A stretch of DNA of 64,000 nucleotides from Klebsiella pneumoniae. Its GTDB lineage: Bacteria > Myxococcota_A > UBA796 > GCA-2862545. The notes under the pieces were generated by a model. The model did no database searches. It was given only the letters and a program-made list of their open reading frames with translations, and was not told where the DNA came from. Both the position numbers and the translations under genes were made by a program. The stretch spans positions 1-64,000 of the forward strand of contig CAMASI010000001.1 of assembly GCA_945861065.1 (NCBI GenBank), given 5' to 3'. This document shows positions 4,356 to 41,517 of this stretch, in pieces (the first letter of the stretch is position 1; the number at the start of each line of letters is the position of its first letter).

Positions 4356-6932
4356 ATGTCCCTCCTTTGGATCGTCGCGGCTTGCGGAGGCGGTACAGAC
4401 CAACCCGCGCAACCGCCTCCTATCGGCGTGAACGGCGAATTTCCACGACTCTCGTCTGAAGAGAAGGGACAGAGTATTCCGCTTCACCGCACCGACGGTG
4501 TGGTGGACCTGAGCCGCGTCAGTCCAGCGCCGACCGGCACCGACGATACGTTTCAGGTGGTTCTCACCGAACTCGCCGGCAAAGAGGGGAAAGCGAGCCC
4601 GATTCGTTCCTACCGCGGCGACCTGCCATTTCCCGTTTCCGAAGAAGATGCCCGCTTCAGACCCGCCGATATGGCCGTATTCGTAGACGGCGTTGAGGCG
4701 CTCTATACGCGGTCACCCATGGCAAAACCCCACCGAACCACATGGCGCATTTCCAACGGAAAGCTGTCGCTCTCGAACAAGGGGGAGGTAGGAACAGTCG
4801 AGGTCCGCTACCCGGGTGTACAGCGAGCCTTGGACCGACACGACGTGAGGGCCTCTGAACTCACTCCACAGGACTTCGTGCGTTACGACCTGTCGATTTC
4901 GGGAACCACCCGACAAGGATTGATGTTGCCCGCGGGCGCGACCGCCTCCTTTGAGCTGACGGTGCCCACAACGCACCCGAAATTCCAGACGTTGCTCGCG
5001 CTAGAAGAAACACCGATTCCGAGCGCCACTTCGGATGGGGCAGTGGCCGTACTCCAAGTTGTTGCGGAAGGCGTGACCACGGAAGTCGCGCGAACGCAAA
5101 TCGCCACGGCTCGCAGCGACTTTGCGCCCTGGACCGTGGACCTGTCGGCGTGGGCGGGCGCCAAGGTCACGCTTCGACTTCAAACCGACTCGGGACCGAC
5201 GCCGGACTGGGACTGGTTGTTCTGGGCCAGCCCGACGGTGTCGGGGACAGCGCCGTCACCAGGAAAGCGCGTCGTCGTCATCGCTTTCGACACTACGCGT
5301 CCGGACCACATCGGATTCTATGGCTATGCCGGTGGCGCCACGCCCGAGTTGGACGCCATTGCGGCACAATCCGTAGTTTTCGATAAGTCCTGGAGCCAAG
5401 CTCCCCGAACTCGCCCGAGTTTTCGATCCGCGACCACGGGTCGCCTGCCGCTGGACGCCGTAGGAGCGACCAATCTGGGTCAATATTTTTCGCAAGCGGG
5501 TTGGGCGACGGCTGGGATTGTCGCCAACGTTCACCTTCAGCCCCGATTCGACTTTCATCGCGGCTACGACGTGTGGACGTACACGGGGGAGGAGGTCGCC
5601 GAGGTCCAGGTAGACCGCGCCGTGGAATGGCTTGCGAGCCAGACGGACCGAGATGCCATGCTTTTTCTTCACTTCATGGATCCCCACTTGCCGTACAAAG
5701 CGCCAGGCTCCTACGAGCAGCGCTTCGTGCCCGCGCCGAATCCGGAGTTGGCCACCTTCGAACGCACCGACATCCTCGCGAGGATGAAGGAGGACACGCT
5801 CACAGAGGCCGACCACACAGAAATCGTTGCGCGACATGATGGCGAAATGGCCTACCTGTCGAGCCAGGTCGGCAGGCTCTTCGCGGCTCTCGACGCCGCG
5901 CCGGGCGAAGCGTTCACCGTGGTGCATTCGGACCACGGCGAAGAATTTTGGGAGCACGCTGGGTTTGAACACAACCATTCGCTGTACGAAGAGACTGTAC
6001 GCACAGTGCTGTGGTTTCGTCCAAAAGGCGGCCTAAAACCAGGCTACCGGGTGCAGGCACCGGTTTCCCTGATCGACCTCGTACCCACCGTGCTCGACCT
6101 CGCGTCTTTTCCGGTCCCGCCCCAACTCGACGGCGTGTCCCTGAGAACTCTTCTCAACGGGAAGGGCACCTTAGCCGCCGCCCGCCCCCTGGGACTCGGC
6201 CACCTTCAATATGGCGTTCAGCGCTGGGGGGTCGTGAGCCAAGGGCACAAGTACGTGATCTACACGCTGTCCGGCCGGCAGCAGCTGTTCAATTTGGAGG
6301 TCGATCCGACTGAACTGAACGACCTTTCGGCAACCACAGATCTCAAGCCCTGGGTGGACGCGCTGGTTCGCTCCCACGCTGGTCAGGGGGATTCAGCTTG
6401 GACGCCCCTCGATGCTGGCCCAGGCTGGCGCATCCGCCTCACATTGGCCCCGAACTCAGCCCCGATCACCGTCGCCCTGCCGGCGGAGGCCAAACGCGCC
6501 GGCGTGTTGGACCCAGAAGCAGGGAAAGAATCCCCCGCCAACCAAGAGTGGGGCGAAGTGCCCGACGCCACCATGGCAGACGTCGGATCCGTTGTGCTGT
6601 CGGCGGATCGGCGCGCGATCACGATCACGCCGGGCACGCTCGGCCAGGGTGTCGTATGGGTCCGCTTTGACGCGACCACCCCAGCGGAGGGGGTCGCGCT
6701 CACGCGAGGCGCCATCATATTGACGGTCGCCGAAGGTAGAAAAGGCAACCCTCGTTGGGAAGAAGGCGAAGAAAAAATCATCGTTGAGCCCGGTACGGTA
6801 GTCGTTCCCCCCGCCGGCGAGTGGGCCCGTATGCAGGCCCAACGAAGTGCGGGGGGCGTTGCCGAATCCGACAGGGCTGAACTGATCCGCCTGGGCTATC
6901 TTCAGGAAGATCCACCGGAGGTCCACCAGTAA
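4356..6932 (+). CDS. Sulfatase-superfamily lipoprotein with Thr at the nucleophile position
   Basis: An 858-residue protein with lipobox VAAC (Cys10). Residues 20-300 are a beta-rich region without a recognised family. A sulfatase/alkaline-phosphatase-superfamily domain spans about 302-660: metal-site Asp312 in AFDTTRPDH, then PRTRPSFRS and a later metal site Asp526-His527 in DHGEEFWEH. At the position that holds the formylglycine Cys or Ser in true sulfatases it has Thr352 (TRPS). Thr nucleophiles occur in phosphoethanolamine transferases and related hydrolases, so phosphodiesterase or transferase activity is as likely as sulfatase activity. Residues 660-858 are an unassigned C-terminal region. 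It is probably co-transcribed with the DsbA-like gene 15 bp upstream. Confidence 0.85.
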   Translation: MSLLWIVAACGGGTDQPAQPPPIGVNGEFPRLSSEEKGQSIPLHRTDGVVDLSRVSPAPTGTDDTFQVVLTELAGKEGKASPIRSYRGDLPFPVSEEDARFRPADMAVFVDGVEALYTRSPMAKPHRTTWRISNGKLSLSNKGEVGTVEVRYPGVQRALDRHDVRASELTPQDFVRYDLSISGTTRQGLMLPAGATASFELTVPTTHPKFQTLLALEETPIPSATSDGAVAVLQVVAEGVTTEVARTQIATARSDFAPWTVDLSAWAGAKVTLRLQTDSGPTPDWDWLFWASPTVSGTAPSPGKRVVVIAFDTTRPDHIGFYGYAGGATPELDAIAAQSVVFDKSWSQAPRTRPSFRSATTGRLPLDAVGATNLGQYFSQAGWATAGIVANVHLQPRFDFHRGYDVWTYTGEEVAEVQVDRAVEWLASQTDRDAMLFLHFMDPHLPYKAPGSYEQRFVPAPNPELATFERTDILARMKEDTLTEADHTEIVARHDGEMAYLSSQVGRLFAALDAAPGEAFTVVHSDHGEEFWEHAGFEHNHSLYEETVRTVLWFRPKGGLKPGYRVQAPVSLIDLVPTVLDLASFPVPPQLDGVSLRTLLNGKGTLAAARPLGLGHLQYGVQRWGVVSQGHKYVIYTLSGRQQLFNLEVDPTELNDLSATTDLKPWVDALVRSHAGQGDSAWTPLDAGPGWRIRLTLAPNSAPITVALPAEAKRAGVLDPEAGKESPANQEWGEVPDATMADVGSVVLSADRRAITITPGTLGQGVVWVRFDATTPAEGVALTRGAIILTVAEGRKGNPRWEEGEEKIIVEPGTVVVPPAGEWARMQAQRSAGGVAESDRAELIRLGYLQEDPPEVHQ

Positions 6933-10890: not shown

Positions 10891-12495
10891 TCACCAAGAT
10901 TCGCGCGGCACGGCGCCCGCAGCCGTCAGGATCGACAACACCTCATCGAGGTCCTCGTGGGTAAACAGCAGGACCAGATCGCCCTCTCGAACGCCAGCAA
11001 GTGCACGAATCGCTGCTTCACGTTCGTTCGCTGCTACCAAGATCTGCGGCCCTCCTTCACGCTCAAGCCTCAGCCGCAACCGACCGGTCACCTCCCCTGG
11101 CACACGGCCTCGCAAGTGGCCCGACAACTCCTTGAGAATGACGCGCGCCGGATCCAAACGCAGGACGGCGTCTCCCAACGCGTCGATAAGCGCGTCGGTT
11201 CGGTCTCCCGCCTGTCCAACGACGACCGTGGTGCGCCCAGCCCACTGTGCAACCAACGGAACAAAGTGGGCGACCGCGTCAGGGGTGTGGCAATAGTCCA
11301 CCACCACACGGGCGCCACGCACATCAAAGAGGTTCATTCGTCCGCGATTGTCCGCGACAGATGCCGTGAATTCTCTGAGCGCTGCTCCGATTGCGGCGCG
11401 GGGCAGCCCCATCGCATGTGCCGTCAACGCGGCAGCCAACGCATTTTGTACGCCATGACGCAGCAAACCTCCAGCGGCAAATGCGAGTTCGGCTTCCGCG
11501 ACGAGCGGCTCACCGCAAAGCCACAAATGCCCGTCCAACGCATAGGCCTCCGCGCCAACGGAACTGCCATCGCGGAATCGAAGCACGGCCACGGTCGGAG
11601 GGTTCCGGCGGATCGAAGCTGCGAGGGCGTCGTCGTCCCCATTCACGACGAGCACGCCGTCGGGGGCCACCCCTCGAGCCACCGTGAGCTTCGCGTCTGC
11701 CATGTCGTGAATGTCGAACAGACCCCACTCTCCGAGGTGGTCCGCACTCACATTCGTCACGACGGCCGCCCGCGCCCCACCGCACACCAACCCGCGTCGC
11801 ATCATGCCACCGCGCGCCGTTTCGAGCACAGCAAAGGTGCATTCGGGGTGACGGAGAAGCAGCCGCGCCGCTTGCGGGCCCGTCCAATCGCCACGCGTCA
11901 GCCACTCGCCAGCGACCCAGATGCCGTCAGAGGACGTCTGACCGACCTGGAAACCGGCGAGCGTGGCCATCCGGGCAAGCAGCCGGGTTGTCGTGGTCTT
12001 TCCGTTCGTGCCAGTCACGAAGACAAAGGGGATCTGTCCAACACTGGGCAATTCGTCGGGAAGTGCCTCAGCATGAAAGCCGACCGCAACCGGTCCCATG
12101 CCGAAAACGACCTCGTCGCCCTCGACAAGACAGCTGCGACCGATGTCTGCGCTCGCAGCCACCGCGGCCCGCAGCCGAGGCCGCTCCAACTCCCGGATCG
12201 CCTCAGCGATTCGCTCTTCCCCGGGACCCAGACCGGCCGCCTGTTCGACGACGTCTGTTGCAGCGAGCGCAAGGTCCACAGGGCAAGCCAGTGCCACTGT
12301 CGCGCCTCCGGGCCACCGACGCACGGCCGTGTGACCGCTCCACCCCAAACGCCGCGCCAACTCCGATGCCGCCTGTTGCCATTGCGCCAGCCAGGCCTCG
12401 GCGTCTTCGCCCTCGAAGACGACCTCCGCCGCCGCGCCTGGGCCGTCGAGCACCATGTGGGGACCCGTGATTCGTCGGGACTGCTGAATTCGCAT
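10891..12495 (-). CDS. Mur ligase-type cyanophycin-synthetase paralogue without ATP-grasp domain
   Basis: A 534-residue protein. The ATG at 12495 overlaps the stop of cphA (ATGA), which fixes the start. Residues 1-150 resemble the cyanophycin synthetase N-domain (RRITGPHMVL compared with RTYVGPNQYA in CphA). The ATP-grasp domain is absent, and the sequence runs directly into a Mur ligase domain with P-loop TGTNGKTTTT (about 162-171), NVSADHLGEWG and a C-terminal DYCHTPDAV motif that is closer to MurE than to the GHNPAAV of CphA. It probably ligates an amino acid to a peptide and may process or extend cyanophycin-like material. CphA2, the known cyanobacterial variant, differs by retaining ATP-grasp. 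Confidence 0.8.
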   Translation of the reverse strand: MRIQQSRRITGPHMVLDGPGAAAEVVFEGEDAEAWLAQWQQAASELARRLGWSGHTAVRRWPGGATVALACPVDLALAATDVVEQAAGLGPGEERIAEAIRELERPRLRAAVAASADIGRSCLVEGDEVVFGMGPVAVGFHAEALPDELPSVGQIPFVFVTGTNGKTTTTRLLARMATLAGFQVGQTSSDGIWVAGEWLTRGDWTGPQAARLLLRHPECTFAVLETARGGMMRRGLVCGGARAAVVTNVSADHLGEWGLFDIHDMADAKLTVARGVAPDGVLVVNGDDDALAASIRRNPPTVAVLRFRDGSSVGAEAYALDGHLWLCGEPLVAEAELAFAAGGLLRHGVQNALAAALTAHAMGLPRAAIGAALREFTASVADNRGRMNLFDVRGARVVVDYCHTPDAVAHFVPLVAQWAGRTTVVVGQAGDRTDALIDALGDAVLRLDPARVILKELSGHLRGRVPGEVTGRLRLRLEREGGPQILVAANEREAAIRALAGVREGDLVLLFTHEDLDEVLSILTAAGAVPRESW

Positions 12496-15263
12496 CAATC
12501 CTCTGTGTCCACGGCGAGTCGCACGCCGCGGTGATCTCGAATGAAACGTTGCCCGCCTTCGGCGGTCTCCTCGACTTCGACGACGACGGGCGTGGGCGCG
12601 ACAGGCGCCTCCTCCCGTTTCCCGCCAAAGTAAATGATCTGTTTCCAACACCGGCTGACTTTGTCGCCAAAGATCAGCACCACGTCGCGCTGCGAGGCCG
12701 TGGACAGCGCGTGTTGGAGCGCCTCGACCTCTGAAGGAATCACAGTGATCCGGTCGGCGGACACCCCTTCGGCAGCAAGGGCCGCAGCCAGGCGGCGTGG
12801 CACATCGCCCGGAGGACGGCCCCTGCGATCGTCGTCTTCGCGCAGAATGAATTGGTCAAACGTGCGCGCGGCGCGACGGCCAATGGCATCGATGTCTACA
12901 TCCCTTCGGTCTCCTGGCGCCGCGAGCACCACCCTTCGAGCCCCGACCGCGCCTTCGGACAACCGGTCTACGAGGTCGCACATCGCAGACACCGCCGCGG
13001 GGTTGTGTCCATAGTCGAGAATCACCTTGAAACCATGATTGTCGTACACGTTCATGCGGCCCGGCGCCTGAAAGAACGTCGTGTCGAAGGTGCGAAGTCC
13101 ATGGCGTATGTCGTCGAGTTTCACGCCCATCGCGTACGCCATCCCAGCGGCAAACATCGCGTTCACCACGTTGTGCGCGGCACGCCCCTCCAGCGTCGCA
13201 GGAATCAAATGGGTCCACAACAAGGGGATGTGGGCGCCCTTGTCGTACAGCGTGATCATCTGCCCGTTCACCCCGGCCTCCAACGCAACGGCCCGTCCGC
13301 CGGCGCGTACATGCTCCCTCACCAGCATGTTGCTCGGCGAGGTGGTCACGTAGCAGATGTGTTTGGCGACGCTGTGTTCAGCCATCTGGTTGCACCGATG
13401 GTCATCGGCATTGAGTACAACGGTGTCGCGCGCCACTTCGATGGGAATTCGTTTGATTTCGGCGAGTTGATCGAGGGTGTCCACGCCGCGATTGCCGAGG
13501 TGATCCTCCGACACGTTCAGGCAACAGGAAACGTCCGGATGCCGAAATCCAAGTCCGGCCCGAAGGAGACCGCCCCTTGCCACCTCAAGGATCGCACAGT
13601 CCACGGTGGGGTCCTTGAGCACCATATGCGCGGCCACCGGACCCGTCATGTCCCCTTCCACCGTGCGTTGACCGTCCACATAAACGCCGTCGGTCGTCGT
13701 CATGCCCACGGTGCGACCGACCAACTTGTGGATGTGGGCCAGCATCCTTGTGGTCGTCGTCTTTCCATTTGTTCCGCTGATGGTGGCGATCGGGATGCGC
13801 GACGGTCGGCCCGGCGGGAAGAGCATGTCCAGAACTGCGCCAGCGACGTCGCGCGGTGTGCCTTCCGAAGGCGCCACGTGCATACGGAACCCAGGGGCGG
13901 CGTTGACCTCGCAGATGCCGCCTCCCACGTCTTTGTACGAGCGCGTGATGTCGGGGGACAAGAAGTCTACGCCACACACATCCAAACCCACCGCAGACGC
14001 CGCGCGCACAGCCATGTCGCGGTTGTCGGGGTGGATGACGTCGGTCACGTCGATGGCCGTCCCACCCGTGGACAGGTTGCCGGTGGTGCGAAGAAAAAAC
14101 ACATCGCCGACCGCGAGTACTGACGCCGGCGTGTGTCCGGCGTCGGCGAGTAGCCTCAACGCCTGTGCATCCATTTCCAAGCGCGTCAGCGTCTTTTCGT
14201 GCCCAACACCCCTTCGCGGGTCGCTGTTGATGATGTCCACAAGTTCGCCGATCGTATGAACACCGTCTCCGACCACATGACCGGGCACGCGCTTGCTGGC
14301 GGCGACCAAGCTGCCGTCTACGACCAACAGCCGGTGATCCAAGCCGACAATCATCTGCTCGACGAGCACGGTGCGGGCGTGTTCTCGTGCGCTCGTGTAG
14401 GCCGTTCGCACCTGTTCCTCGGTCGTCAGCCCAATGCTCACGCCGCGCCCGTGGTTGGCGTCTAGAGGTTTGACCACGACCGGATAGCCAATTCGCCTCG
14501 CGGCCCGGGCAGCTTCGTCCTCCCGAAACACCGAGGTCTGTTTTGGCACCGGCAAACCGATTTCGCCAAGGAGCTTGTTGGTCAGTTCCTTGTCCGACGC
14601 GATTTCCACCGCGATGTGACGCGTTTCGCTGGTGACTGTCGCCTGAATGCGGCGTTGATGCCGACCGTGTCCAAACTGAACCAAACTCGCATCGTTGAGG
14701 CGAATCCAGGGAATGTCCCTTTCGGCAGCGGCGCGAACCAAAGACAACGTGCTCGGACCAAATGCGCGCCGTTCCGCACCGCGCAAGAAACCCTCCATCT
14801 CCGCCTTGAAGTCAAAGTCGGCCGTGTCCCCAGCGCCGACCAGGTCCTTCGGCACCAAGGCGTGCAACGTCTCGAGCGCGAGCGTCGCGACCTGTTGCCC
14901 GATCCACGCGTCCTCGTATTCGTAGACCACATGGTATTGGCCGACGACGCCCGTCCCGCGGGTCTTGCCGAACGTCACACGGTTTCCGGCGAGATTCTGC
15001 ATCTCGATCGCCACATGTTCCATCACGTGGCCCATCCAGGTCCCGCCGTCCTCCGTCAACCTTCGGACGAAACCACCAGGTTCACCGTACGAACAGCCGT
15101 GCTCTCGCAACGTCGGCATCCAAGCCAACAACCCGTCGACGAAACCCGGCAGCGCGCCCGAAGGGTGATGCTCCAAGGCGCCGAGGTCCAGCGTCAGGCG
15201 GATGACGGGAAAACGCGCGTACTGGTTCGGGCCAACATACGTTCGCTGCTCAACGACGACCAT
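12495..15263 (-). CDS. cphA: Cyanophycin synthetase
   Basis: Makes the storage polymer multi-L-arginyl-poly-L-aspartate from Asp, Arg and ATP. The ATG at 15263 (922 aa) is chosen over an upstream GTG because VEQRTYVGPNQYAR matches the usual CphA N-terminus and GAGGG lies seven bases upstream. Order: N-domain 1-150, ATP-grasp about 200-470 (VVVKPLDANHGRGVS loop; CEVNAAPGFRMH metal site), Mur ligase from about 490 with P-loop SGTNGKTTTT (496-505), NVSEDHLGNRG, and a C-domain with DYGHNPAAV. Both active sites look complete. It follows a coupled minus-strand gene chain after 80 bp and is coupled to the Mur-ligase paralogue downstream. No cyanophycinase is in the window. Confidence 0.93.
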   Translation of the reverse strand: MVVVEQRTYVGPNQYARFPVIRLTLDLGALEHHPSGALPGFVDGLLAWMPTLREHGCSYGEPGGFVRRLTEDGGTWMGHVMEHVAIEMQNLAGNRVTFGKTRGTGVVGQYHVVYEYEDAWIGQQVATLALETLHALVPKDLVGAGDTADFDFKAEMEGFLRGAERRAFGPSTLSLVRAAAERDIPWIRLNDASLVQFGHGRHQRRIQATVTSETRHIAVEIASDKELTNKLLGEIGLPVPKQTSVFREDEAARAARRIGYPVVVKPLDANHGRGVSIGLTTEEQVRTAYTSAREHARTVLVEQMIVGLDHRLLVVDGSLVAASKRVPGHVVGDGVHTIGELVDIINSDPRRGVGHEKTLTRLEMDAQALRLLADAGHTPASVLAVGDVFFLRTTGNLSTGGTAIDVTDVIHPDNRDMAVRAASAVGLDVCGVDFLSPDITRSYKDVGGGICEVNAAPGFRMHVAPSEGTPRDVAGAVLDMLFPPGRPSRIPIATISGTNGKTTTTRMLAHIHKLVGRTVGMTTTDGVYVDGQRTVEGDMTGPVAAHMVLKDPTVDCAILEVARGGLLRAGLGFRHPDVSCCLNVSEDHLGNRGVDTLDQLAEIKRIPIEVARDTVVLNADDHRCNQMAEHSVAKHICYVTTSPSNMLVREHVRAGGRAVALEAGVNGQMITLYDKGAHIPLLWTHLIPATLEGRAAHNVVNAMFAAGMAYAMGVKLDDIRHGLRTFDTTFFQAPGRMNVYDNHGFKVILDYGHNPAAVSAMCDLVDRLSEGAVGARRVVLAAPGDRRDVDIDAIGRRAARTFDQFILREDDDRRGRPPGDVPRRLAAALAAEGVSADRITVIPSEVEALQHALSTASQRDVVLIFGDKVSRCWKQIIYFGGKREEAPVAPTPVVVEVEETAEGGQRFIRDHRGVRLAVDTED

Positions 15264-15342
15264 GCTGCTGCCCTCGTGCTCGTGGCTCCCTACGCCACCG
15301 GGACCCACATGGGTAGATCAGTCTCAAGCCAACTGGCACGCT

Positions 15343-32390: not shown

Positions 32391-33620
32391 TCAGTGTGCC
32401 CACACCCGCAAGTTGGCGCCAATATCGTCGAGAATCGCCCTGACGACGTCGTAGTCCGGATGGCGGACACAAACGTAGGCGTTCGCAAGGTAGCCAGCTT
32501 CAACGGGTTGGGTCCGTTGTCCCACGGCCGGAAGGTGCATGCGGAAGATCAAGCTCCCATACTTGCGCTGCACTTCGTCCAGACCTGAATAGCCCGCAAT
32601 CGTGCCGTCCTGGTTGGGCCTGAGCGCAACGAGCCCCGCAGCGTACTGACGGCTAGGCCGCTCCGCTACTTTGCCCCAAACCAGGGCTCTCGCCCATTCG
32701 GTGTACAGGTCGAAGTCGTTGGCCGCGCAATAGGTGTCCCACCAGTTGCAGCCGGGAGGGCGCGCGCCAATCTCGCTAAAATACAGGCCTTTGGCGCCTG
32801 CAAACCACTCCATATGGGTCGCAGTTGTCGAAAGGCCCAATTCCGCCACCACACGGCGACCGAAGGCCCGCAATTCGCTGTACCCCGGGGCGTCGATGCG
32901 ATTGGTCGCAATCATCTGCGGCGAAACAGCCCGGTCCCTCATTCCTTCAAGAACGTTGGGATAATAGTGGGTGACTGCCTCAAATACGACTTCGCCGTGG
33001 CAGGTAAGCGTATCGAAATACCCCTCATGCCCGGCAATGAACTCTTCCATTGTGAAGTAGCGTTCGTGTTTGTCCAGCCCCGTTTCTCGCAACGCGGCCC
33101 AAAGCCCCTTGTCGTCGTCGATCCGATAGGTTGACGCGGCGCCAGCCCCATCTCTGGGCTTGAGAATGACCGGATAGCCCTGCTCGCGCACAAACCCCAC
33201 CGCATCTTCCGCACGATTGACGATGGCATTCGCCGCACAAGGAATTCCTTTTTGGCGCAGTTCTTGCTTCATGACGAACTTGTCGCGGCAGTAATTTACG
33301 GTGCTCGACGATAGCCCCGGGATCCCGGTCCGTTCGCGCACGTGCGCGGTCGCAAGCACATGGGCCTCGACGGTCGCCTCCAATCTGTCCACCCAGGGTC
33401 CCCGCGCCTGGATGCGCCTGACCGCCTCGGTCATCGAATCGACGTCACCCAATGCCGGAACGGACTCGTAGCCGTCCAATAGCTCGCGAATCTCGGGATC
33501 GAGCCGATCGACCGGCGTGTCGCCGAGCCCGGTTACCCGGGCGCCTACGTTTTTTAGACCGCGGACAAACCGGCGTTGATTCGCCGGAAAATTCGGGGCC
33601 ACCATGATGACGTGCGGCAT
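32391..33620 (-). CDS. ATP-grasp ligase (amino-acid/peptide ligase type)
   Basis: A 409-residue protein; the ATG at 33620 has AAGGAG eight bases upstream, and the product begins PHVIMVAPNFPANQRRF. Residues 1-105 are a pre-ATP-grasp Rossmann-like domain. Residues 115-310 are the ATP-grasp fold: VILKPRDGAGAAST (lysine and glycine-rich loop), the FTMEEFIAGHEGYFD strand with acidic ligands, and FSEIGARPPG with the metal-binding Glu and Arg. The closing domain (about 320-409) is typical of carboxylate-amine ligases such as L-amino-acid ligases and carnosine synthase. It probably forms an amide bond with ATP hydrolysis; the substrate is unknown. It sits 11 bp after a second ATP-grasp gene. Confidence 0.82.
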   Translation of the reverse strand: MPHVIMVAPNFPANQRRFVRGLKNVGARVTGLGDTPVDRLDPEIRELLDGYESVPALGDVDSMTEAVRRIQARGPWVDRLEATVEAHVLATAHVRERTGIPGLSSSTVNYCRDKFVMKQELRQKGIPCAANAIVNRAEDAVGFVREQGYPVILKPRDGAGAASTYRIDDDKGLWAALRETGLDKHERYFTMEEFIAGHEGYFDTLTCHGEVVFEAVTHYYPNVLEGMRDRAVSPQMIATNRIDAPGYSELRAFGRRVVAELGLSTTATHMEWFAGAKGLYFSEIGARPPGCNWWDTYCAANDFDLYTEWARALVWGKVAERPSRQYAAGLVALRPNQDGTIAGYSGLDEVQRKYGSLIFRMHLPAVGQRTQPVEAGYLANAYVCVRHPDYDVVRAILDDIGANLRVWAH

Positions 33621-33631
33621 CGATTGACTCC

Positions 33632-34888
33632 TTAGGGTACGACTAATCCAAGGCGGTCGCGCTCGGTCTTGCACCAAAAACGCACCAAGCCAAAGAAATG
33701 GTCGGTAAATGACTCCACTTCGTGGGCAGGATAGAGCGCGGCGACCTTTGCCCGAATGATTTCTCTCATGGCCGGGCTAGAGAACACATCTACAGCGATC
33801 TCATCCAGGTGGGAAAGGTGCTTCGCGCAAAATTCGTCGAATCGGTCCGAATCGAAATGTTTCTTTGCGAGTTCGTCATACACGTCAAGCTGCGCATCCA
33901 GGTCGAGCTCCGGATTGCGCGCCGCGAGGAACGTGTCCCAATCCAGGTTCAAGCGGAACGGGCGTCGGGTTGCTGCACAAAATACGGACCAGCGAACCAG
34001 GGCGCGAACAAGCCACGGCCAGTGATAATGGAGACTGGTCACTTGGCTGTCTGGGCACGCATTGGCAAAGTCAATTGCGGTCAGCTGACCGTCTGCTCGT
34101 AGCATTTCGCACGAGTTGAAATCCCACCCAAAAAAAGCGTTGATCGTTCGGCAAATCCGCGTTGCCCTGCGCCAGCCTTCACCGTCGATGAATCCAAAGT
34201 CGACGACATACCGGGCGTGTAAGGGCTGCGCTGGGTCGTATTTGACGATGTTGACCTGGGGTCCCACACCGATTGCCCGGATGAACAGGTCCCAGTCGCG
34301 AACACCAGCCTGCAAGTGATGCACCCGCTTTCCCGACTCGTCGTAGGCGACCTTGAGTTCGGCCGCGTTGTCTACTTTGCGTACGCCAACCCAGCCGCCA
34401 CCGTCGTAGGGCTTGAAAAACGCCGGGTAGCCGACCGATGCGCCAACGCCGTCCAAGTCGAAGAGCTTGTTGTAACGCTGCACCGTCACAGACCAGTCGC
34501 CGTCCTCGTCGTACTCTTTGGGCGGCAACATCCACGTGCGAGGGATCGGCAATCCGAGCTTCATCATCGCGACGTAGGAAGTATGCTTCTCGTTCGCCTG
34601 GATAGACCACGGGTTGTTCAACACGTAGGTTCCGTCCGCGAGGGTAATCTTCTTGATCCACTCCCGCGTCGTCTGGAACCAATGCGTAAGCCGATCCACA
34701 ACGACGTCGTATTTACGAGGTCCTTCAAGGTCGAAGGGCTCGACCGTGACGCGGTCTACGTCAAAGCGGATGCGCTCCCCGTCGATCTCGATGTCCAGGT
34801 CGAGGCGACGCATCAACTCTTCGTAGGCGGCAGGCCAACACAGGTCCGCCCCCAAGGACAAACCGATTCGCCGTGTGTTCGCTGCCAT
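33632..34888 (-). CDS. ATP-grasp fold protein, first gene of the ligase operon
   Basis: A 418-residue protein. The ATG at 34888 is chosen because MAANTRRIGLSLGADLCWP begins a clean domain and GGGGTG lies upstream; the longer frame crosses the divergent promoter region. Residues 1-75 form the N-domain with DYVVVDRLTHWF-like sequence. The ATP-grasp core (about 90-300) has NPWSIQANEKHTSY, FFKPYDGGGWVGV (nucleotide-binding lysine and Gly loop) and the putative metal site AIDFANACPDSQ. Such proteins ligate carboxylates to amines via acyl phosphate. The C-terminal 100 residues are helical and unassigned. It is paired with the second ATP-grasp gene, so a two-step peptide or amide synthesis is plausible. 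Confidence 0.75.
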   Translation of the reverse strand: MAANTRRIGLSLGADLCWPAAYEELMRRLDLDIEIDGERIRFDVDRVTVEPFDLEGPRKYDVVVDRLTHWFQTTREWIKKITLADGTYVLNNPWSIQANEKHTSYVAMMKLGLPIPRTWMLPPKEYDEDGDWSVTVQRYNKLFDLDGVGASVGYPAFFKPYDGGGWVGVRKVDNAAELKVAYDESGKRVHHLQAGVRDWDLFIRAIGVGPQVNIVKYDPAQPLHARYVVDFGFIDGEGWRRATRICRTINAFFGWDFNSCEMLRADGQLTAIDFANACPDSQVTSLHYHWPWLVRALVRWSVFCAATRRPFRLNLDWDTFLAARNPELDLDAQLDVYDELAKKHFDSDRFDEFCAKHLSHLDEIAVDVFSSPAMREIIRAKVAALYPAHEVESFTDHFFGLVRFWCKTERDRLGLVVP

Positions 34889-35004
34889 GTTCACCCCGAG
34901 GGGCGGCGCCGCTATCCCAGGGCGGCGCCAAGCGCGACGGCGGTCCGTTCGACGTCGCGTTACGATGTAGGCGCCGCGAGCGTTCCATCGCATCCGGAGG
35001 CCAG
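34889..35004. promoter_or_regulatory. Divergent promoter region with repeated GCGGCGCC sites
   Basis: The 116-bp gap separates the ATP-grasp operon from the giant lipoprotein gene. The 10-mer GGGCGGCGCC occurs at 34901-34910 and 34920-34929 in direct orientation 19 bp apart, about two helical turns. An inverted GGCGCCGC copy lies at 34970-34977. That arrangement is typical of a regulator-binding site serving both genes. A ribosome site CCGGAGG precedes the right-hand start. No convincing -35/-10 or sigma54 -24/-12 box is seen by eye. Confidence 0.5.
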
Positions 35005-38000
35005 ATGTTCCGACCCATGACTCCCGCCTTGGTGTTTCTTGCCGGGTGCGGCGGCCGTTGGGATCCGCCCCTGATTCTGTTGGGACCCACGGGCGCAGAC
35101 ACCGAGGACGACCTGGCCGTGGCAATCCTGGACCGGCAAGGGGCACCCGACCGAGCTGTTCCGACGTTCCAGTGGTTCAATGAAGGGGCGCTTCAGGTGG
35201 ACCTCTTGGGCCCTGTGGTACCTGCCGACCGGACCACACGCGGTGAAACGTGGGAGGTCCGGGTCGGATGGGACGGTTCCTCGAGCAACCCGGCGATCAC
35301 CTCACTCACAATCGCCAATGCGCCACCGGTCGCTTCCGTCGTTATCGACCCGCCCGCCCCGTCCGGCGACGACGCCCTTGTCGCCAAGGCCGAAGGCACC
35401 GATCCCGACGGCGACAGCGTGAGCTTCGCTTGGAGTTGGAAACGCAACGGCGTAAGCACTTCAGAACTCGGATCTGTGATCGCAGCCAGCGAGACCGACG
35501 AGCAGGACCTTTGGGAGGTCACCGTGGTACCCACGGATGGCAGAGTCGATGGCGCCCCTGTCGTCAGCTCAGTCATCGTCGGAAACCACGCTCCGACCGT
35601 CCAATCGGTCTACCTCGGGCCGGAACCCGCCTATGAGATGAGTGTGCTCACCGCCGAGGCGGAAATCAGCGACCCCGACGGCGACGCCACCACGACCACC
35701 TACAGCTTCGACGTCAACGGCGCGATGGCGCAGGACGGCCCAGCAAACTCCTTGACCGGCGCATCCTTTTCACGGGGGGACACCGTCGTCGCCACGGTCG
35801 TTACGAGCGACGGAGAGTTTCAAACGTCAGGCACGTCCAACACGGTCGTGATCGACAATTCAGGCCCGGTCGTTAGCGGTCTCGTCTTATCGCCGTCGGA
35901 CCCCCGGGAAAGCGACGTCGTGCAGTGCAGTTGGGCGACCGTGGTTGACCCAGACGGTGATGCGATCAGCGCCACCACGTTGAGTTGGCTCGTCAACGGT
36001 ACCTTGGTTCAGGTGGGTGGCTCCCTGGACGGAACTGCGTTCGACAAGGGTGACCTCGTCGCCTGCGACGTGCAAGCCACGGACGTGGACGGGGCAGTCG
36101 GCCCGACCTCTACGGCGTTGACCGTTGCCGACAACACCCCGCCATTGGCGCTCTCCGCGACCCTTTCCACAACGTCTCCCGACGGCTCCGCCCCGGTCAC
36201 CGTTTCAGGCGTCGCCACAGATGCCGACGATGACGCAATCACGTGGTTTTGGACGTGGCGCGTAGACGGCGTGATCGTTTCGAACGGCGACACCCTCACC
36301 GTGGACAAGTTTACGAAGGGCGCGACCATCATTGCCGAAGGTTTACCTTCGGATGACGAAGAGCCCGGAAACTCGGTATTTTCGAACGCGGCCGTCGCGA
36401 CGAATTCCGCCCCGTTGGTCGAGGCTTCCATCAGCCCCAATCCGCCGGTCACCGACGACGTTGTCACCGCGACCTGGTCTGCCTCAGATGCCGACGGAGA
36501 CCCGCTAACGGTGCAGCGTTGGTGGACCGTGGCCGGCCTTCGCGTGCTCGAAGATGTCGACCAAATCGACGGCTCCTTCATTGCTAAGGGACAGGAGGTT
36601 GCTTTCCACGCTTTCGCAAACGATGGCGTTGTGGACGGACCAGAAACAATTGTGTCGGCCATCGTCGCCGACACGGCGGCTTCGGTCTCCGCGGCCACTG
36701 TGGAGCCTAGTCCGCTCACGGTCACAGAGGTCGCATCCTGCGCGCCAATCGGCTGGTCCGACCTCGACGGCGACGAGCCGGCTTTTACTGTGGAATGGCG
36801 GGTCAACGGCCTCATCGTGGCCGACACGCTCACACTGGCGTCGCCTGCATTCGTGCGCGACGATGTCGTGAGTTGTATCCTTACCCCGGATACCGGCGTC
36901 GCCGGAATTCCGGTGGAAAGCCCTGCAGTGGTGGTAGGAAATGCCGCGCCAAGTGCCCCGGTCGCTGTAATTGCACCGAGCACCTCGATCTGGGGCCATG
37001 AGGATCTGGTCTGCGCCTTGGCGGCGCCAGCAATCGACGCTGACGGGGACACCGTCACTTACGACGTCCATTGGTCTACACCCACCGAAGGGGATGTGCT
37101 CGGCACAGAGACGGTTCAGCCCAACGACACGATTGCCGCCGGCCAAACGTTGGACGCACGCACATGGACCTGCACGTTGTTCTCGAACGACGGCACCGAT
37201 TCCACCCCGAGCGCACCTGTCTCCGTAACGCCCGAGCCCGCAGGCGGGAATCTCCTACTCATCATTGCAGACGATTTAGGCGTAGACAAGGTGGGCGCCT
37301 ACGGCGAGCACCCCGACCCGCCACCCACGCCCGCACTCGATCGCTTGGCCGCAGACGGCATGTTCTTCCGCAACGCGTACGCTTCCACAGTTTGCGCACC
37401 CACGAGGGCCAACCTCTTTACTGGCCGCCATGGGCACAGAACCGGCGTAGGAAAGATCATCGACGTTTGGACCTATGATTACGCGCTTCCCGACACGGAA
37501 GTCGGTTTGCCCCTGATGATCGCATCTTCCACCTATTTCGACTACTCGAATAGCCACATCGGAAAATGGCATTTGGGCAGCGCCGCAGACGGTCCCACCT
37601 ACCCAGATCACTTCGGTTTTGAGTGGTATCAGGGCTCGCTCGGCAATCTCGGCGACCCCAGCACGATTGGGACCCTAGGTGCGAGGGACTATTTTAATTG
37701 GGAACGGAACGATAACGGCGTGGTCGAAATCAACGAAAACTACGCCACTGTGGAATCCACGGATGCCGCGCTGGCCCGTATGGATGAGCTTGACGAGCCG
37801 TGGGTTATTTGGCTGGCGTACAACGCACCGCACGAGCCACTTCATGTCCCTCCCGCCTACCTTCACAGCTACGCTGGACTCGATGAGTCCAGTTCGGACT
37901 ATGAAAAGTATCAGGCCATGGTGGAGTCATTAGACAGCGAAATCGGGCGGCTCATGGCATCCATGGACCCCGCGGTGCTCTCAGACACCAACGTGTTTTT

Positions 38001-41000
38001 CATGGGGGACAACGGTACGCCAAAACATGGCATCAGTCCTCCCTTCGATCCCGAAAAAGGAAAAGGCAGCGTCCGAGAGGGCGGTGTCAACGTCCCGCTC
38101 ATCGTCATGGGTCCATTGGTCTCCGTACCCGGTTCCGAATCCGAGGCGTTCGTCCACGCAGTGGATATCTTCGCGACATTTGCTGCAATCGTTGGTGTAG
38201 ATGTTCGAGAAATCGTACAGCAGGACCTCAACGGCAATGATTTTCCGATCCACATAGATGGCGTCTCAATCCTCCCCTACCTGTCAGATCCGAGCCGAGA
38301 GGGCGCGAACGACACCGCCTTCGTCGAGCGCTTCGAGCCAAACGGAGACGGCCCCTTTGAGGCTTGGTCCCGCGCCCTAAGGGAGGAAAAGTATAAGCTT
38401 ATGCGAACGGATCAAAATGGGTTTGCTGTCGAAGAATTCTTCGACATCAGCTCGTCGCCCGTGGAGGTCACCGAGGATGAGTTGCTCGCTGCGGGCCCGT
38501 TGGACCCGGAAGCCCAGGAAGCCTACGACCGGTTGAGCGAAACGCTTGACGCCCATGAAATCGAAATCGCATTTGAGGTGCCCGAACACCCGCCCGAAGC
38601 CTGGTTGGTCCTTATCGATCCGTCTCCAGCCTACGCCAGCGCCACCCTCACCTGCCTCCCTGTCGGGGTCCGGGATTCGGATGGAGATGACCTCACCTTC
38701 CGCTTCGACTGGTCCGTCGACGGGGTGGATGTCGCAGAACACGGCGCTGAACTCGTTCCGAGCCATTTCGCCCTGGGGTCGGAGGTGGCCTGCACCGTCA
38801 CACCGAACGACGGCTTGGTCGACGGGCAATCGGCAGTCGGAACAGTGATCATCGGCAACGCGGCGCCCACCCTATTCGGTGCCGCGCTTCTTCCCGAGAA
38901 GGCGGACGCGAGCACCGTGTTCACTTGCTTACCGGCCGGCCTGGAGGACCTGGATGGCGACCCCATCACGTTGACGTACACTTGGCGCGTCGGTCCCGGC
39001 TTGCTCCTGGACACGGGTCCCACGCTCCAGGCGGCGTTTGTGGACGGCGACGAGGTGCAATGCGGTATCGTTGCGTCAGACGGCAAGGATTCGACCCCGG
39101 AAGTTCGCTCCAACACCGTCAATATTCTCAACGACCGGCCTGAACCTCCTACGGTAGAAATACTCCCACCTTCGCCGGTGCCCGGCGTGGATGATTTGTG
39201 GTGCGCCGTCGTCGCCGACGCCGTGGATGCCGATGGGGACCCGTTAGCCTACGGCTTCTCGTGGACGTTGGACGGGGAGGTTTATGTCGGCCCTACGGCC
39301 ACGACGCTGGTCCTTGGCGACACCATACCTGCGTCCGAAACAGAGTCTGACCAGGGTTGGGTCTGCCAAGTTCTTACCTGGGACACTAAAGAAATCGGGG
39401 ACCCCGCCTTTGCGTCTGTTTGGCTTTGGGACATTGAGCCCGACGTTTGGCCCACCGGACTCGATTTCCGACCGGTGAATTCAACCTGCTTGGCGGGTGC
39501 GCGTCCTTCCAGCGGAACGGCGGTGGACCTGGTTGTAGCGTACTCGTTGGTATTAGATCAGCCCATTTCGATGCACCACCCGCCGAACGATGATTCGTAC
39601 TGGTACGTGATCCTCCAAGGGGGCGAAATCGTCCGTTTCGAGAATTCTCCCGACACGGAAGTGTTTACGGTTTCGCTCGATATTCATGACCTTGTGCACA
39701 ACCTCCCAGGTGCTCAGGCAGGCCTGTTGGGAATGGCCTTCGATCCGGACTTCGACATCACCGGCGAAATATTGGTTTTCTATTCGACGCCGCCCGGAGA
39801 CGAGGTCTTCCAGAGCACCTCCCGGATTAGCCGATTCACCTCCTTTGACGGCGGCGTCACCTTCGACCCCACCACCGAGGAGGTTCTCTTCGAGCTGGAT
39901 CAAGAGTACGAATATGACAAAGGAGGGCAGATCGCCTTCGACGACGAGGGCTATTTCTGGTTTTCCCATGGCGACGGCGGCGGTGAGCTCGATCCGTACG
40001 GGCACGGGCAGGACACTTTCAGCTTTTTCTCGAAGATCCTGCGAGTAGACCTTCAAACAGGCTACCCCTGGGGAATCCCCGATGACAACCCGTTCGCCGA
40101 CGGCGTGGAAGGGCTGCCCGAAATTTGGGCGTACGGCTTTCGCAACCCGTGGCGGTGGTCATTCGACCCGTCTGGCGATTTGTGGGTGGGCGACGTGGGC
40201 TCGGACCAGGTTGAAGAAATCAGCCTGATTTCCAGGGGCGGAAACGCCGGTTGGTCGATCACTGAAGGTTCCCAGTGTGTCACTGAACCCTGCAGCACGG
40301 TGGGCCTCACCCCCCCGGCCGTTGAATGGTCTCATGATGGCGAATCGGCGGCCGTCATTGGCGGTCTGGTTTACCAAGGCGGCCTCATTCCGGACTTGAA
40401 CGGCGCCTATTTGTATACGGACTACTTCGGTGGGGGCCCGCTCAACGCCATTCGGAAGTCGGGCGGAGCGTTCGTCACCGAAACGCTGATGCCGTTCACA
40501 GGTAGGCGTTTGGTCTCCTTCGCGGAAGACAAGTCCAACGAGGTCTTCGCCGTGGACCACGAGTCTGGGCAGATTTTCGTGCTTGTTCCTGCGGACCCGG
40601 TGGCCGACAGTTTCCCGGGTACGCTATCGCAGACCGGTTGCGTCGATCCTACGAACGCTACGTTGCCGGCCGCAGGGCTGATTCCTTTTGACGTCACGAC
40701 CGCGAGGTGGTCCGACGGTGCCGATGCGACGCGCTACCTCGCGCTGCCCCAGGGCACGACGCTCGGGCTTTTGGACGACGAGGACCTGGATTTTCCGCCC
40801 GGGACCGTCCTGATGAAGACGTTCGAAATTGGCGGATCCCCGGTTGAGACCCAACTGCTGATGCGCCACGACGATGGGGAGTGGGCCGGGTACAGTTACG
40901 AATGGAACGAGGACGGCACAGACGCTGACCTGCTCGTGGACTCGAAAACCAAGGAGTTCGGTGGCCAGGAGTGGGCATACCCATCAAGGGGGAACTGCCT

Positions 41001-41517
41001 GGAATGCCATACCGATGCAGCCCATAGGGCCCTGGGACCGGAGGTGCTCCAACTCAATAAGGAGTGGCTCTACCCAAACGGCCGCGTGGCCAACCAGATC
41101 GAGACCTGGCGCCACATCGGCCTTTTCACCGACGACCCTGGTGCGGCAGACTCCCTGCCTGCGCTCACGGGTTTGGACGAGTTGGCCGCCCCCGTAGAAG
41201 ATCGGGCGCGCTCTTACCTGCACGCAAACTGCGCGCATTGCCATACCGCAGGCGGTACCGGGAGCGGGCCCGCTGATTTCCACTACTTCGCAGCGGACCC
41301 TACGTACTGCGACGTCGCTCCCTTCGGGTCCGACCTAGGCGCCGGACCAGAGGCCCGCATTTTCGCGCCGGAGCAACCTGAGAACAGCGTTCTATACCTA
41401 AGAATGGTCGACCTCGGGTCCAAGCGCATGCCACCGTTAGCGACCTCCATCCTGGACGCGGAGGTGTTGGGCCTCATCGAGGAGTGGATAGCTACAACCA
41501 GTACCTGCACCTTCTGA
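35005..41517 (+). CDS. Giant lipoprotein: PKD-like repeats, sulfatase, PQQ sugar dehydrogenase and dihaem cytochrome
   Basis: A 2170-residue protein; the ATG at 35005 has GGAGG upstream and gives lipobox FLAGC (Cys15). Order: seven PKD/Ig-like repeats each with a D-x-DGD-type loop (about 70-745); a sulfatase domain (about 748-1190) with IIADDLG, the formylglycine motif CAPTR (Cys797), IGKWHLG and MGDNGT; three more repeats (about 1199-1480); a sorbosone/glucose-dehydrogenase-type PQQ beta-propeller (about 1490-1866) with LLGMAFDPDF and YGFRNPWRWSFDP; and a C-terminal module of the TIGR03806/HNE_0200 type with two haem motifs, CLECH (1998-2002) and CAHCH (2076-2080). It probably acts at the cell surface on sulfated sugars: desulfation, then oxidation with electron transfer to the attached haems. 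I know of no described protein with this order. Confidence 0.88.
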   Translation: MFRPMTPALVFLAGCGGRWDPPLILLGPTGADTEDDLAVAILDRQGAPDRAVPTFQWFNEGALQVDLLGPVVPADRTTRGETWEVRVGWDGSSSNPAITSLTIANAPPVASVVIDPPAPSGDDALVAKAEGTDPDGDSVSFAWSWKRNGVSTSELGSVIAASETDEQDLWEVTVVPTDGRVDGAPVVSSVIVGNHAPTVQSVYLGPEPAYEMSVLTAEAEISDPDGDATTTTYSFDVNGAMAQDGPANSLTGASFSRGDTVVATVVTSDGEFQTSGTSNTVVIDNSGPVVSGLVLSPSDPRESDVVQCSWATVVDPDGDAISATTLSWLVNGTLVQVGGSLDGTAFDKGDLVACDVQATDVDGAVGPTSTALTVADNTPPLALSATLSTTSPDGSAPVTVSGVATDADDDAITWFWTWRVDGVIVSNGDTLTVDKFTKGATIIAEGLPSDDEEPGNSVFSNAAVATNSAPLVEASISPNPPVTDDVVTATWSASDADGDPLTVQRWWTVAGLRVLEDVDQIDGSFIAKGQEVAFHAFANDGVVDGPETIVSAIVADTAASVSAATVEPSPLTVTEVASCAPIGWSDLDGDEPAFTVEWRVNGLIVADTLTLASPAFVRDDVVSCILTPDTGVAGIPVESPAVVVGNAAPSAPVAVIAPSTSIWGHEDLVCALAAPAIDADGDTVTYDVHWSTPTEGDVLGTETVQPNDTIAAGQTLDARTWTCTLFSNDGTDSTPSAPVSVTPEPAGGNLLLIIADDLGVDKVGAYGEHPDPPPTPALDRLAADGMFFRNAYASTVCAPTRANLFTGRHGHRTGVGKIIDVWTYDYALPDTEVGLPLMIASSTYFDYSNSHIGKWHLGSAADGPTYPDHFGFEWYQGSLGNLGDPSTIGTLGARDYFNWERNDNGVVEINENYATVESTDAALARMDELDEPWVIWLAYNAPHEPLHVPPAYLHSYAGLDESSSDYEKYQAMVESLDSEIGRLMASMDPAVLSDTNVFFMGDNGTPKHGISPPFDPEKGKGSVREGGVNVPLIVMGPLVSVPGSESEAFVHAVDIFATFAAIVGVDVREIVQQDLNGNDFPIHIDGVSILPYLSDPSREGANDTAFVERFEPNGDGPFEAWSRALREEKYKLMRTDQNGFAVEEFFDISSSPVEVTEDELLAAGPLDPEAQEAYDRLSETLDAHEIEIAFEVPEHPPEAWLVLIDPSPAYASATLTCLPVGVRDSDGDDLTFRFDWSVDGVDVAEHGAELVPSHFALGSEVACTVTPNDGLVDGQSAVGTVIIGNAAPTLFGAALLPEKADASTVFTCLPAGLEDLDGDPITLTYTWRVGPGLLLDTGPTLQAAFVDGDEVQCGIVASDGKDSTPEVRSNTVNILNDRPEPPTVEILPPSPVPGVDDLWCAVVADAVDADGDPLAYGFSWTLDGEVYVGPTATTLVLGDTIPASETESDQGWVCQVLTWDTKEIGDPAFASVWLWDIEPDVWPTGLDFRPVNSTCLAGARPSSGTAVDLVVAYSLVLDQPISMHHPPNDDSYWYVILQGGEIVRFENSPDTEVFTVSLDIHDLVHNLPGAQAGLLGMAFDPDFDITGEILVFYSTPPGDEVFQSTSRISRFTSFDGGVTFDPTTEEVLFELDQEYEYDKGGQIAFDDEGYFWFSHGDGGGELDPYGHGQDTFSFFSKILRVDLQTGYPWGIPDDNPFADGVEGLPEIWAYGFRNPWRWSFDPSGDLWVGDVGSDQVEEISLISRGGNAGWSITEGSQCVTEPCSTVGLTPPAVEWSHDGESAAVIGGLVYQGGLIPDLNGAYLYTDYFGGGPLNAIRKSGGAFVTETLMPFTGRRLVSFAEDKSNEVFAVDHESGQIFVLVPADPVADSFPGTLSQTGCVDPTNATLPAAGLIPFDVTTARWSDGADATRYLALPQGTTLGLLDDEDLDFPPGTVLMKTFEIGGSPVETQLLMRHDDGEWAGYSYEWNEDGTDADLLVDSKTKEFGGQEWAYPSRGNCLECHTDAAHRALGPEVLQLNKEWLYPNGRVANQIETWRHIGLFTDDPGAADSLPALTGLDELAAPVEDRARSYLHANCAHCHTAGGTGSGPADFHYFAADPTYCDVAPFGSDLGAGPEARIFAPEQPENSVLYLRMVDLGSKRMPPLATSILDAEVLGLIEEWIATTSTCTF

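Follow-up and report, generated by a model that had tools for sequence, protein, structure and literature searches.

Several described systems resemble the protein analysed here, in which a sulfatase, a propeller of the sorbosone/glucose dehydrogenase (GSDH) type and a dihaem cytochrome stand on one chain, encoded in a 64,000-nucleotide stretch of contig CAMASI010000001.1 (the window). The stand-alone bacterial GSDH-dihaem proteins contain the same propeller-cytochrome pair, share roughly 34-48% of their residues with the window protein across ~690 amino acids and keep, as it does, both CxxCH motifs and an Arg-Asn pair; unlike it, they have no sulfatase on the chain and have kept the catalytic His. 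The fungal pyrroloquinoline quinone (PQQ)-dependent pyranose dehydrogenase CcPDH (AA8-AA12-CBM1) is likewise a single secreted chain in which a cytochrome accompanies a GSDH-type propeller; it uses PQQ to oxidise L-fucose, with reduction of haem (PMC4133262, PMC4332668), and differs by its b-type cytochrome, another domain order, the lack of a sulfatase and the presence of the catalytic His (PMC6881789). HHIP, an animal protein whose propeller is the nearest solved one by profile and by fold, has neither haem nor Arg-Asn pair, and carries a His where the window protein has an Asp. The S1 sulfatases of the carrageenan/GalNAc type (6bia, 6b0j, 9fo1, 1fsu) have their fold, formylglycine motif and catalytic residues in common with the window protein, whereas they are stand-alone enzymes. 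Finally, the Planctomycete-specific cytochrome (PSCyt) proteins are multi-domain cytochromes c whose genes often neighbour sulfatase genes; they are built from other domains and, in that account, the sulfatase is the product of the neighbouring gene and not a part of the same chain (PMC5615132).

The reading that we propose, and to which we give a probability of about one half, is that the window protein is a cell-envelope lipoprotein for sulfated sugars, whose sulfatase is predicted to be working and whose oxidation step would probably be disabled or changed. The one-chain architecture itself is real and is conserved in two related genomes, across two genera. Its features are the following.

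34996-35000, + strand: Shine-Dalgarno-like GGAGG, 4 nucleotides 5' of the start codon, a strong ribosome site
35005-41517, +: coding sequence of the 2170-residue lipoprotein (immunoglobulin (Ig)-like repeats, sulfatase, Ig-like repeats, GSDH propeller, dihaem cytochrome), from the open reading frame, profiles and a full-length orthologue
35005-35049, +: signal sequence with lipobox L-A-G-C15, residues 1-15, from the sequence
35068-37239, +: N-terminal stalk of about eight Ig/fibronectin type III-like domains of ~90 residues, seven with a D-x-DGD-type motif, residues 22-745, from motifs and a model
37249-38544, +: S1-type sulfatase, residues 749-1180 (Pfam match 749-1065), from Pfam, structural relatives and alignment
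37393-37407, +: formylglycine motif C797-A-P-T-R, from sequence and alignment
38587-39438, +: three Ig-like repeats between sulfatase and propeller, about residues 1195-1478, from motifs
39556-40590, +: GSDH-type six-blade propeller, HHIP-like, residues 1518-1862 (Pfam match 1518-1806), from Pfam, an AlphaFold model and Foldseek
39916-39918, +: codon GAC for Asp1638, at the position of His144 of soluble glucose dehydrogenase (sGDH), His in 52/52 relatives, from alignments
40141-40146, +: Arg1713-Asn1714, kept, equivalent to sGDH Arg228-Asn229, from alignments
40615-41493, +: dihaem cytochrome region related to TIGR03806, residues 1871-2163, from the profile
40996-41010, +: haem-attachment motif CLECH, 1998-2002, from sequence and alignment
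41230-41244, +: haem-attachment motif CAHCH, 2076-2080, from sequence and alignment
41428-41430, +: Met2142, conserved across all aligned dihaem relatives, likely axial ligand of the second haem, from alignment

One frame runs from the ATG at 35005 to the stop ending at 41517 without an internal stop codon. An initial annotation of the window had described this single 2170-residue frame together with a lipobox Cys15, CAPTR at 797, CLECH and CAHCH, and all of these are in place: LAGC ends at residue 15 and the three motifs begin at 797, 1998 and 2076. The lipobox Cys follows a short hydrophobic stretch, as in bacterial lipoproteins, and both orthologues have a lipobox as well (MTGC in G001, VSAC in G014); this lipobox is what suggests a surface location for the window protein.

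The window genome is a metagenome assembly of 4.45 Mb in 147 contigs, and an artefact of assembly or frame, fusing genes that are in fact separate, therefore had to be excluded. An assembly of this kind is what would make the artefact conceivable. Against it, another genome of the same genus (G001), assembled independently, contains a full-length orthologue with 55% identity, an identical domain order and no stop, and the genes to its left and right correspond to those in the window. The contig in question is the public record SXOB01000042.1, from a metagenome-assembled genome labelled Proteobacteria bacterium isolate F1-120-MAGs212. In the case of G014, which belongs to another genus of the same family, the copy is split over two contigs, C45, which ends in the linker repeats, and C323, which begins there; their ends share 22 identical nucleotides in one reading frame (TPPVVEI), and the two combined would give repeats, sulfatase, repeats, GSDH and dihaem parts, provided that they are joined in the genome. 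Furthermore, the pattern of GC content at third codon positions is homogeneous and unbroken along the frame. Neither the frameshift nor the assembly join that the initial annotation had named as a way in which its reading could fail has been encountered, the order recurring in G001 and, over the ends of two contigs, in G014. For the architecture as a whole we reject the artefact, whose probability is negligible.

The fusion is present in only three genomes (the window genome, G001 and G014) among 63 of the order and 379 of the phylum, in a survey of the phylum that scored only the best few candidates per genome, so that rare paralogues could be missed. The GSDH-dihaem pair without sulfatase is widespread in the phylum; the initial annotation had noted that this pairing exists in other bacteria. 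The same annotation knew of no described example of the complete order; we found no sulfatase-GSDH-cytochrome fusion in the open literature, where the vicinity of PSCyt and sulfatase genes is described instead. A scan of contigs for the orthologue pair, made with two peptide patterns only, returned the G001 contig and distant sulfatases and carries little information on other phyla. The fusion brings known modules together in a new way and, within the range of this survey, is confined to one family, other phyla not having been searched thoroughly. Further candidates were discarded, among them long open frames that surround GSDH-dihaem matches in G047, G081 and similar cases. A 1610-residue frame of G047 has no sulfatase, and its upstream part is of low complexity, rich in Arg and looks non-coding. 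G081 has no sulfatase either; its GSDH-dihaem protein (L024:7645-12999) is followed, after the dihaem part, by a very long Cys-rich array of CGDG..EQCDDGN repeats, another unusual fusion partner. Another candidate, on contig C89 of G014 (L028:3267-6959), consists of repeats, sulfatase and repeats and ends before any GSDH half, so that it is not a second fusion.

The three fused proteins come together as one clade (100/100) in a tree built from 32 GSDH-dihaem regions, separate from those paralogues of G001 and G014 that carry the GSDH-dihaem pair alone. In a tree of sulfatases, the fused three group (96/93) with the C89 paralogue, which is sister to the fused sulfatase of G014. Both trees would be compatible with one fusion event and a later duplication and loss in G014. 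The tree of the redox halves shows a single origin of the chain, which would have arisen in one bacterial family by the joining of a repeat-sulfatase lipoprotein to a GSDH-dihaem protein.

All three modules named by the initial annotation have profile matches in the 2170-residue product. The sulfatase matches Pfam over residues 749-1065 (E 1.4e-39, 136.7 bits, cut-off 25), and among solved structures it comes nearest to carrageenan and GalNAc sulfatases (6bia, 6b0j, 9fo1, 1fsu). It combines the S1 fold with the C-x-P-S/T-R motif and the metal and substrate residues: ten active-site positions are intact (D756, D757, C797, R801, K854, H856, H943, D1002, N1003 and K1020), each being kept in 24-25 of 25 relatives. 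The formylglycine motif is broken in the sulfatase relatives L007 (CQAGR), L098 (GSASR) and L103 (CSAAR), the first being encoded in the window's own genome; these are possibly inactive sulfatases. The three genomes with the fusion (G000, G001 and G014) contain several Cys-type sulfatases each, and no recognisable canonical formylglycine-generating enzyme (FGE) or anaerobic maturase was found in them.

The propeller matches Pfam GSDH over residues 1518-1806 (E 1.2e-29, 104.1 bits, cut-off 25) and has the six-blade fold in an AlphaFold model of residues 1481-2170 (pLDDT 88, pTM 0.70), in agreement with the sorbosone/glucose dehydrogenase type initially assigned to it. When this model is submitted to Foldseek, HHIP comes first, followed by the PQQ enzymes Asd and sGDH (3a9g, 2g8s, 1c9u), and the same ranking is obtained by sequence profile, with HHIP at 181 bits, Asd of E. 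coli at 136 and sGDH at 123. The GSDH-dihaem family is closest to animal HHIP among solved structures, yet it keeps the His and the Arg-Asn of the PQQ enzymes. The Arg-Asn pair near PQQ is found in 32/32 sequences of a first alignment and its Asn in 25/26 of a second one, HHIP having His-Asp at that position. Furthermore, the three fused proteins possess an Arg at the register of sGDH Arg406, a register set by eye, at which R occurs in 3/26 of the alignment.

The window protein retains the equivalent of Arg228-Asn229 and has lost that of His144, the residue held to be the catalytic base in sGDH (PMC6881810). This His is conserved in CcPDH (PMC6881789), and an alignment that includes HHIP shows the putative catalytic His in all members (PMC4133262). 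At residue 1638, the window protein has Asp and the 52 relatives (the 31 others of the first alignment and 21 further proteins) all have His, so that it is unique in 53 sequences; the His is present in both fused orthologues (CAC in G001) and in the other GSDH protein of the window genome. A second change, Arg1791 to Gln, affects a near-invariant position. As for the PQQ carboxylate, sGDH Lys377 has no clear counterpart, the C-terminal part aligning poorly to sGDH; CcPDH, without Lys377, binds PQQ all the same (PMC6881789). Asp1638 lowers the odds of activity without excluding it.

The dihaem region matches TIGR03806, the profile of the SO2930-family dihaem cytochromes, over the whole model (residues 1871-2163, E 1.7e-68) with 231 bits, below the curated cut-off of 313.3. 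The region is related to this family, as the initial annotation had proposed, and the score stops short of membership; the failure of the GSDH or haem profile, which would have told against that annotation, was not observed. All 32 aligned GSDH-fused proteins match the model. Every sequence that includes the dihaem part keeps Met2142 and the two CxxCH motifs. In the case of the first haem, the alignment leaves no invariant Met or His as sixth ligand. Cytochrome c maturation genes (Ccm-type) exist in G000, G001 and G014. On the other hand, a PqqC-type protein was not found in these three genomes, nor was any PqqE above cut-off, G086 reaching 527 bits in the same search; the orthologues, if they use PQQ, must take it up.

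Could the protein be degenerating? The redox half would in that case be becoming a pseudogene in the window species, with selection acting on the sulfatase only, as might be suggested by His1638Asp and Arg1791Gln at near-invariant positions and by the G014 paralogue, which has the same sulfatase type and no GSDH half before its stop. We judge such a decay improbable: the frame is open through 2170 codons, both haem motifs are intact, and at conserved positions the protein departs no more often than the orthologues do (7 times against 5 in G001 and 7 in G014).

The propeller might instead be a non-enzymatic glycan-binding module comparable to animal HHIP, docking the sulfatase on sulfated glycans and leaving to the haems another redox or a structural role. 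HHIP is indeed the best match by sequence profile and by fold, HHIP-C binds heparin (PMC8660895), and the window protein is devoid of the catalytic His; but HHIP lacks the Arg-Asn pair that the bacterial family keeps almost without exception, and the full conservation of the haem motifs and of Met2142 suggests selection for electron transfer. This alternative has a small share of our confidence.

The initial annotation went further and saw a machine in which the window protein removes sulfate, its PQQ propeller oxidises the freed sugar and the electrons reduce the haems of the same chain. The first half of this proposal is supported by the intact sulfatase active site; the oxidation step is unsupported for this protein, given Asp1638 and the lack of any detected PQQ synthesis enzyme. 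The retention of three modules on one chain in two genera, the Arg-Asn of the PQQ site, the Arg at the Arg406 register, absent from most kin, and the oxidation by fungal GSDH-type enzymes of L-fucose, common in sulfated glycans (PMC4133262), all speak for the proposal. It is nevertheless doubtful, not only because of the change at the catalytic base position, the missing PqqC and PqqE and the unclear Lys377 counterpart, but also since GSDH enzymes act on a free reducing end, which desulfation of a polymer alone does not create. A further reading, as tentative as the glycan-binding alternative, is that the orthologues (at least those of G001 and G014) would be single-chain surface machines, in which the S1 sulfatase supplies a PQQ propeller and the electrons reach the two haems of the chain, and that the base His of the window protein was exchanged for Asp with the activity kept or the substrate shifted.

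According to the reading that we prefer, the redox half of the orthologues probably functions as a dehydrogenase that scavenges PQQ, and that of the window species is probably altered or inactive. The N-terminal lipid and the Ig-like stalk would hold the enzymes away from the membrane, and the sulfatase would strip sulfate from a glycan or a sulfated sugar. In the G001 and G014 orthologues, the propeller would bind environmental PQQ and oxidise the C1 of an aldose, the electrons passing to the two haems and then to a carrier. Such a propeller-to-haem coupling is plausible by analogy: electrons pass from PQQ to haem in an engineered fusion of an aldose sugar dehydrogenase with cytochrome b562 (PMC12011955), and a natural enzyme that pairs propeller and cytochrome, fungal CcPDH, oxidises L-fucose (PMC4133262). 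The oxidation would probably have been disabled or changed in the window species by the replacement of His1638 by Asp, the protein being mainly a sulfatase and its propeller perhaps only binding glycan.

Several observations weigh against this preferred reading. No polysaccharide-use genes stand beside the fusion gene. The usual Cys motif is missing from the nine best of the 14 FGE-domain matches of the window genome, and nothing scored above the cut-off for an anaerobic maturase (anSME); FGE motif patterns, which were strict and without positive control, returned nothing in 15 genomes. The missing PQQ genes are compatible with the use of external PQQ. A single C-to-G error in the metagenome assembly would also give Asp1638. 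Asp can act as base in other quinoproteins, for example methanol dehydrogenase. More than 25% of AA12 sequences are without the His (PMC6881810), and for both of these last reasons Asp1638 is no proof of inactivity.

The repeats were initially described as PKD-like and as seven plus three in number. Ten D-x-DGD-type motifs are located, starting at 133, 223, 315, 406 (DADDD), 495, 586 and 678, then at 1224, 1315 and 1408, and the model of the N-terminal part adds a first beta domain without the motif. The tandem repeats are real, and their PKD identity was dropped, Pfam PKD models giving no match with the window protein at E 0.1; the predicted fold is Ig/fibronectin type III-like. The first four domains are modelled as tandem beta-sandwiches (pLDDT 92), for which Foldseek retrieves fibronectin type III domains and fragments of the bacterial grappling-hook protein GhpA. 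Many other lipoproteins of the same taxonomic order carry repeats of a similar kind.

The neighbours of the fusion gene are two-component regulators, an ATP-grasp pair, a cyclopropane-synthase-like methyltransferase and a Lon protease, and thus give no hint of a polysaccharide locus. The ATP-grasp-like pair (32391-35146, - strand) is divergent from the adjoining fusion gene, 74-78% identical in G001 and of no known family. Elsewhere in the window, a second sulfatase gene (4356-6932, +; 858 residues, PF00884 E 1.9e-27) has no Pfam GSDH or cytochrome match, and two adjacent Mur-ligase/ATP-grasp proteins (10891-15308, -), one with a cyanophycin-synthase N-terminal domain, possibly form a cyanophycin-type polymer locus.

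In conclusion, not every GSDH match should be called PQQ-dependent. If the orthologues do desulfate and oxidise, they would make compact use of sulfated sugars, feeding the electrons straight into respiration, and would allow the coupling of a hydrolase to a quinohaemoprotein to be put to the test. Two close orthologues that differ naturally by His and Asp, moreover, offer a direct means of asking whether this branch depends on the GSDH base.

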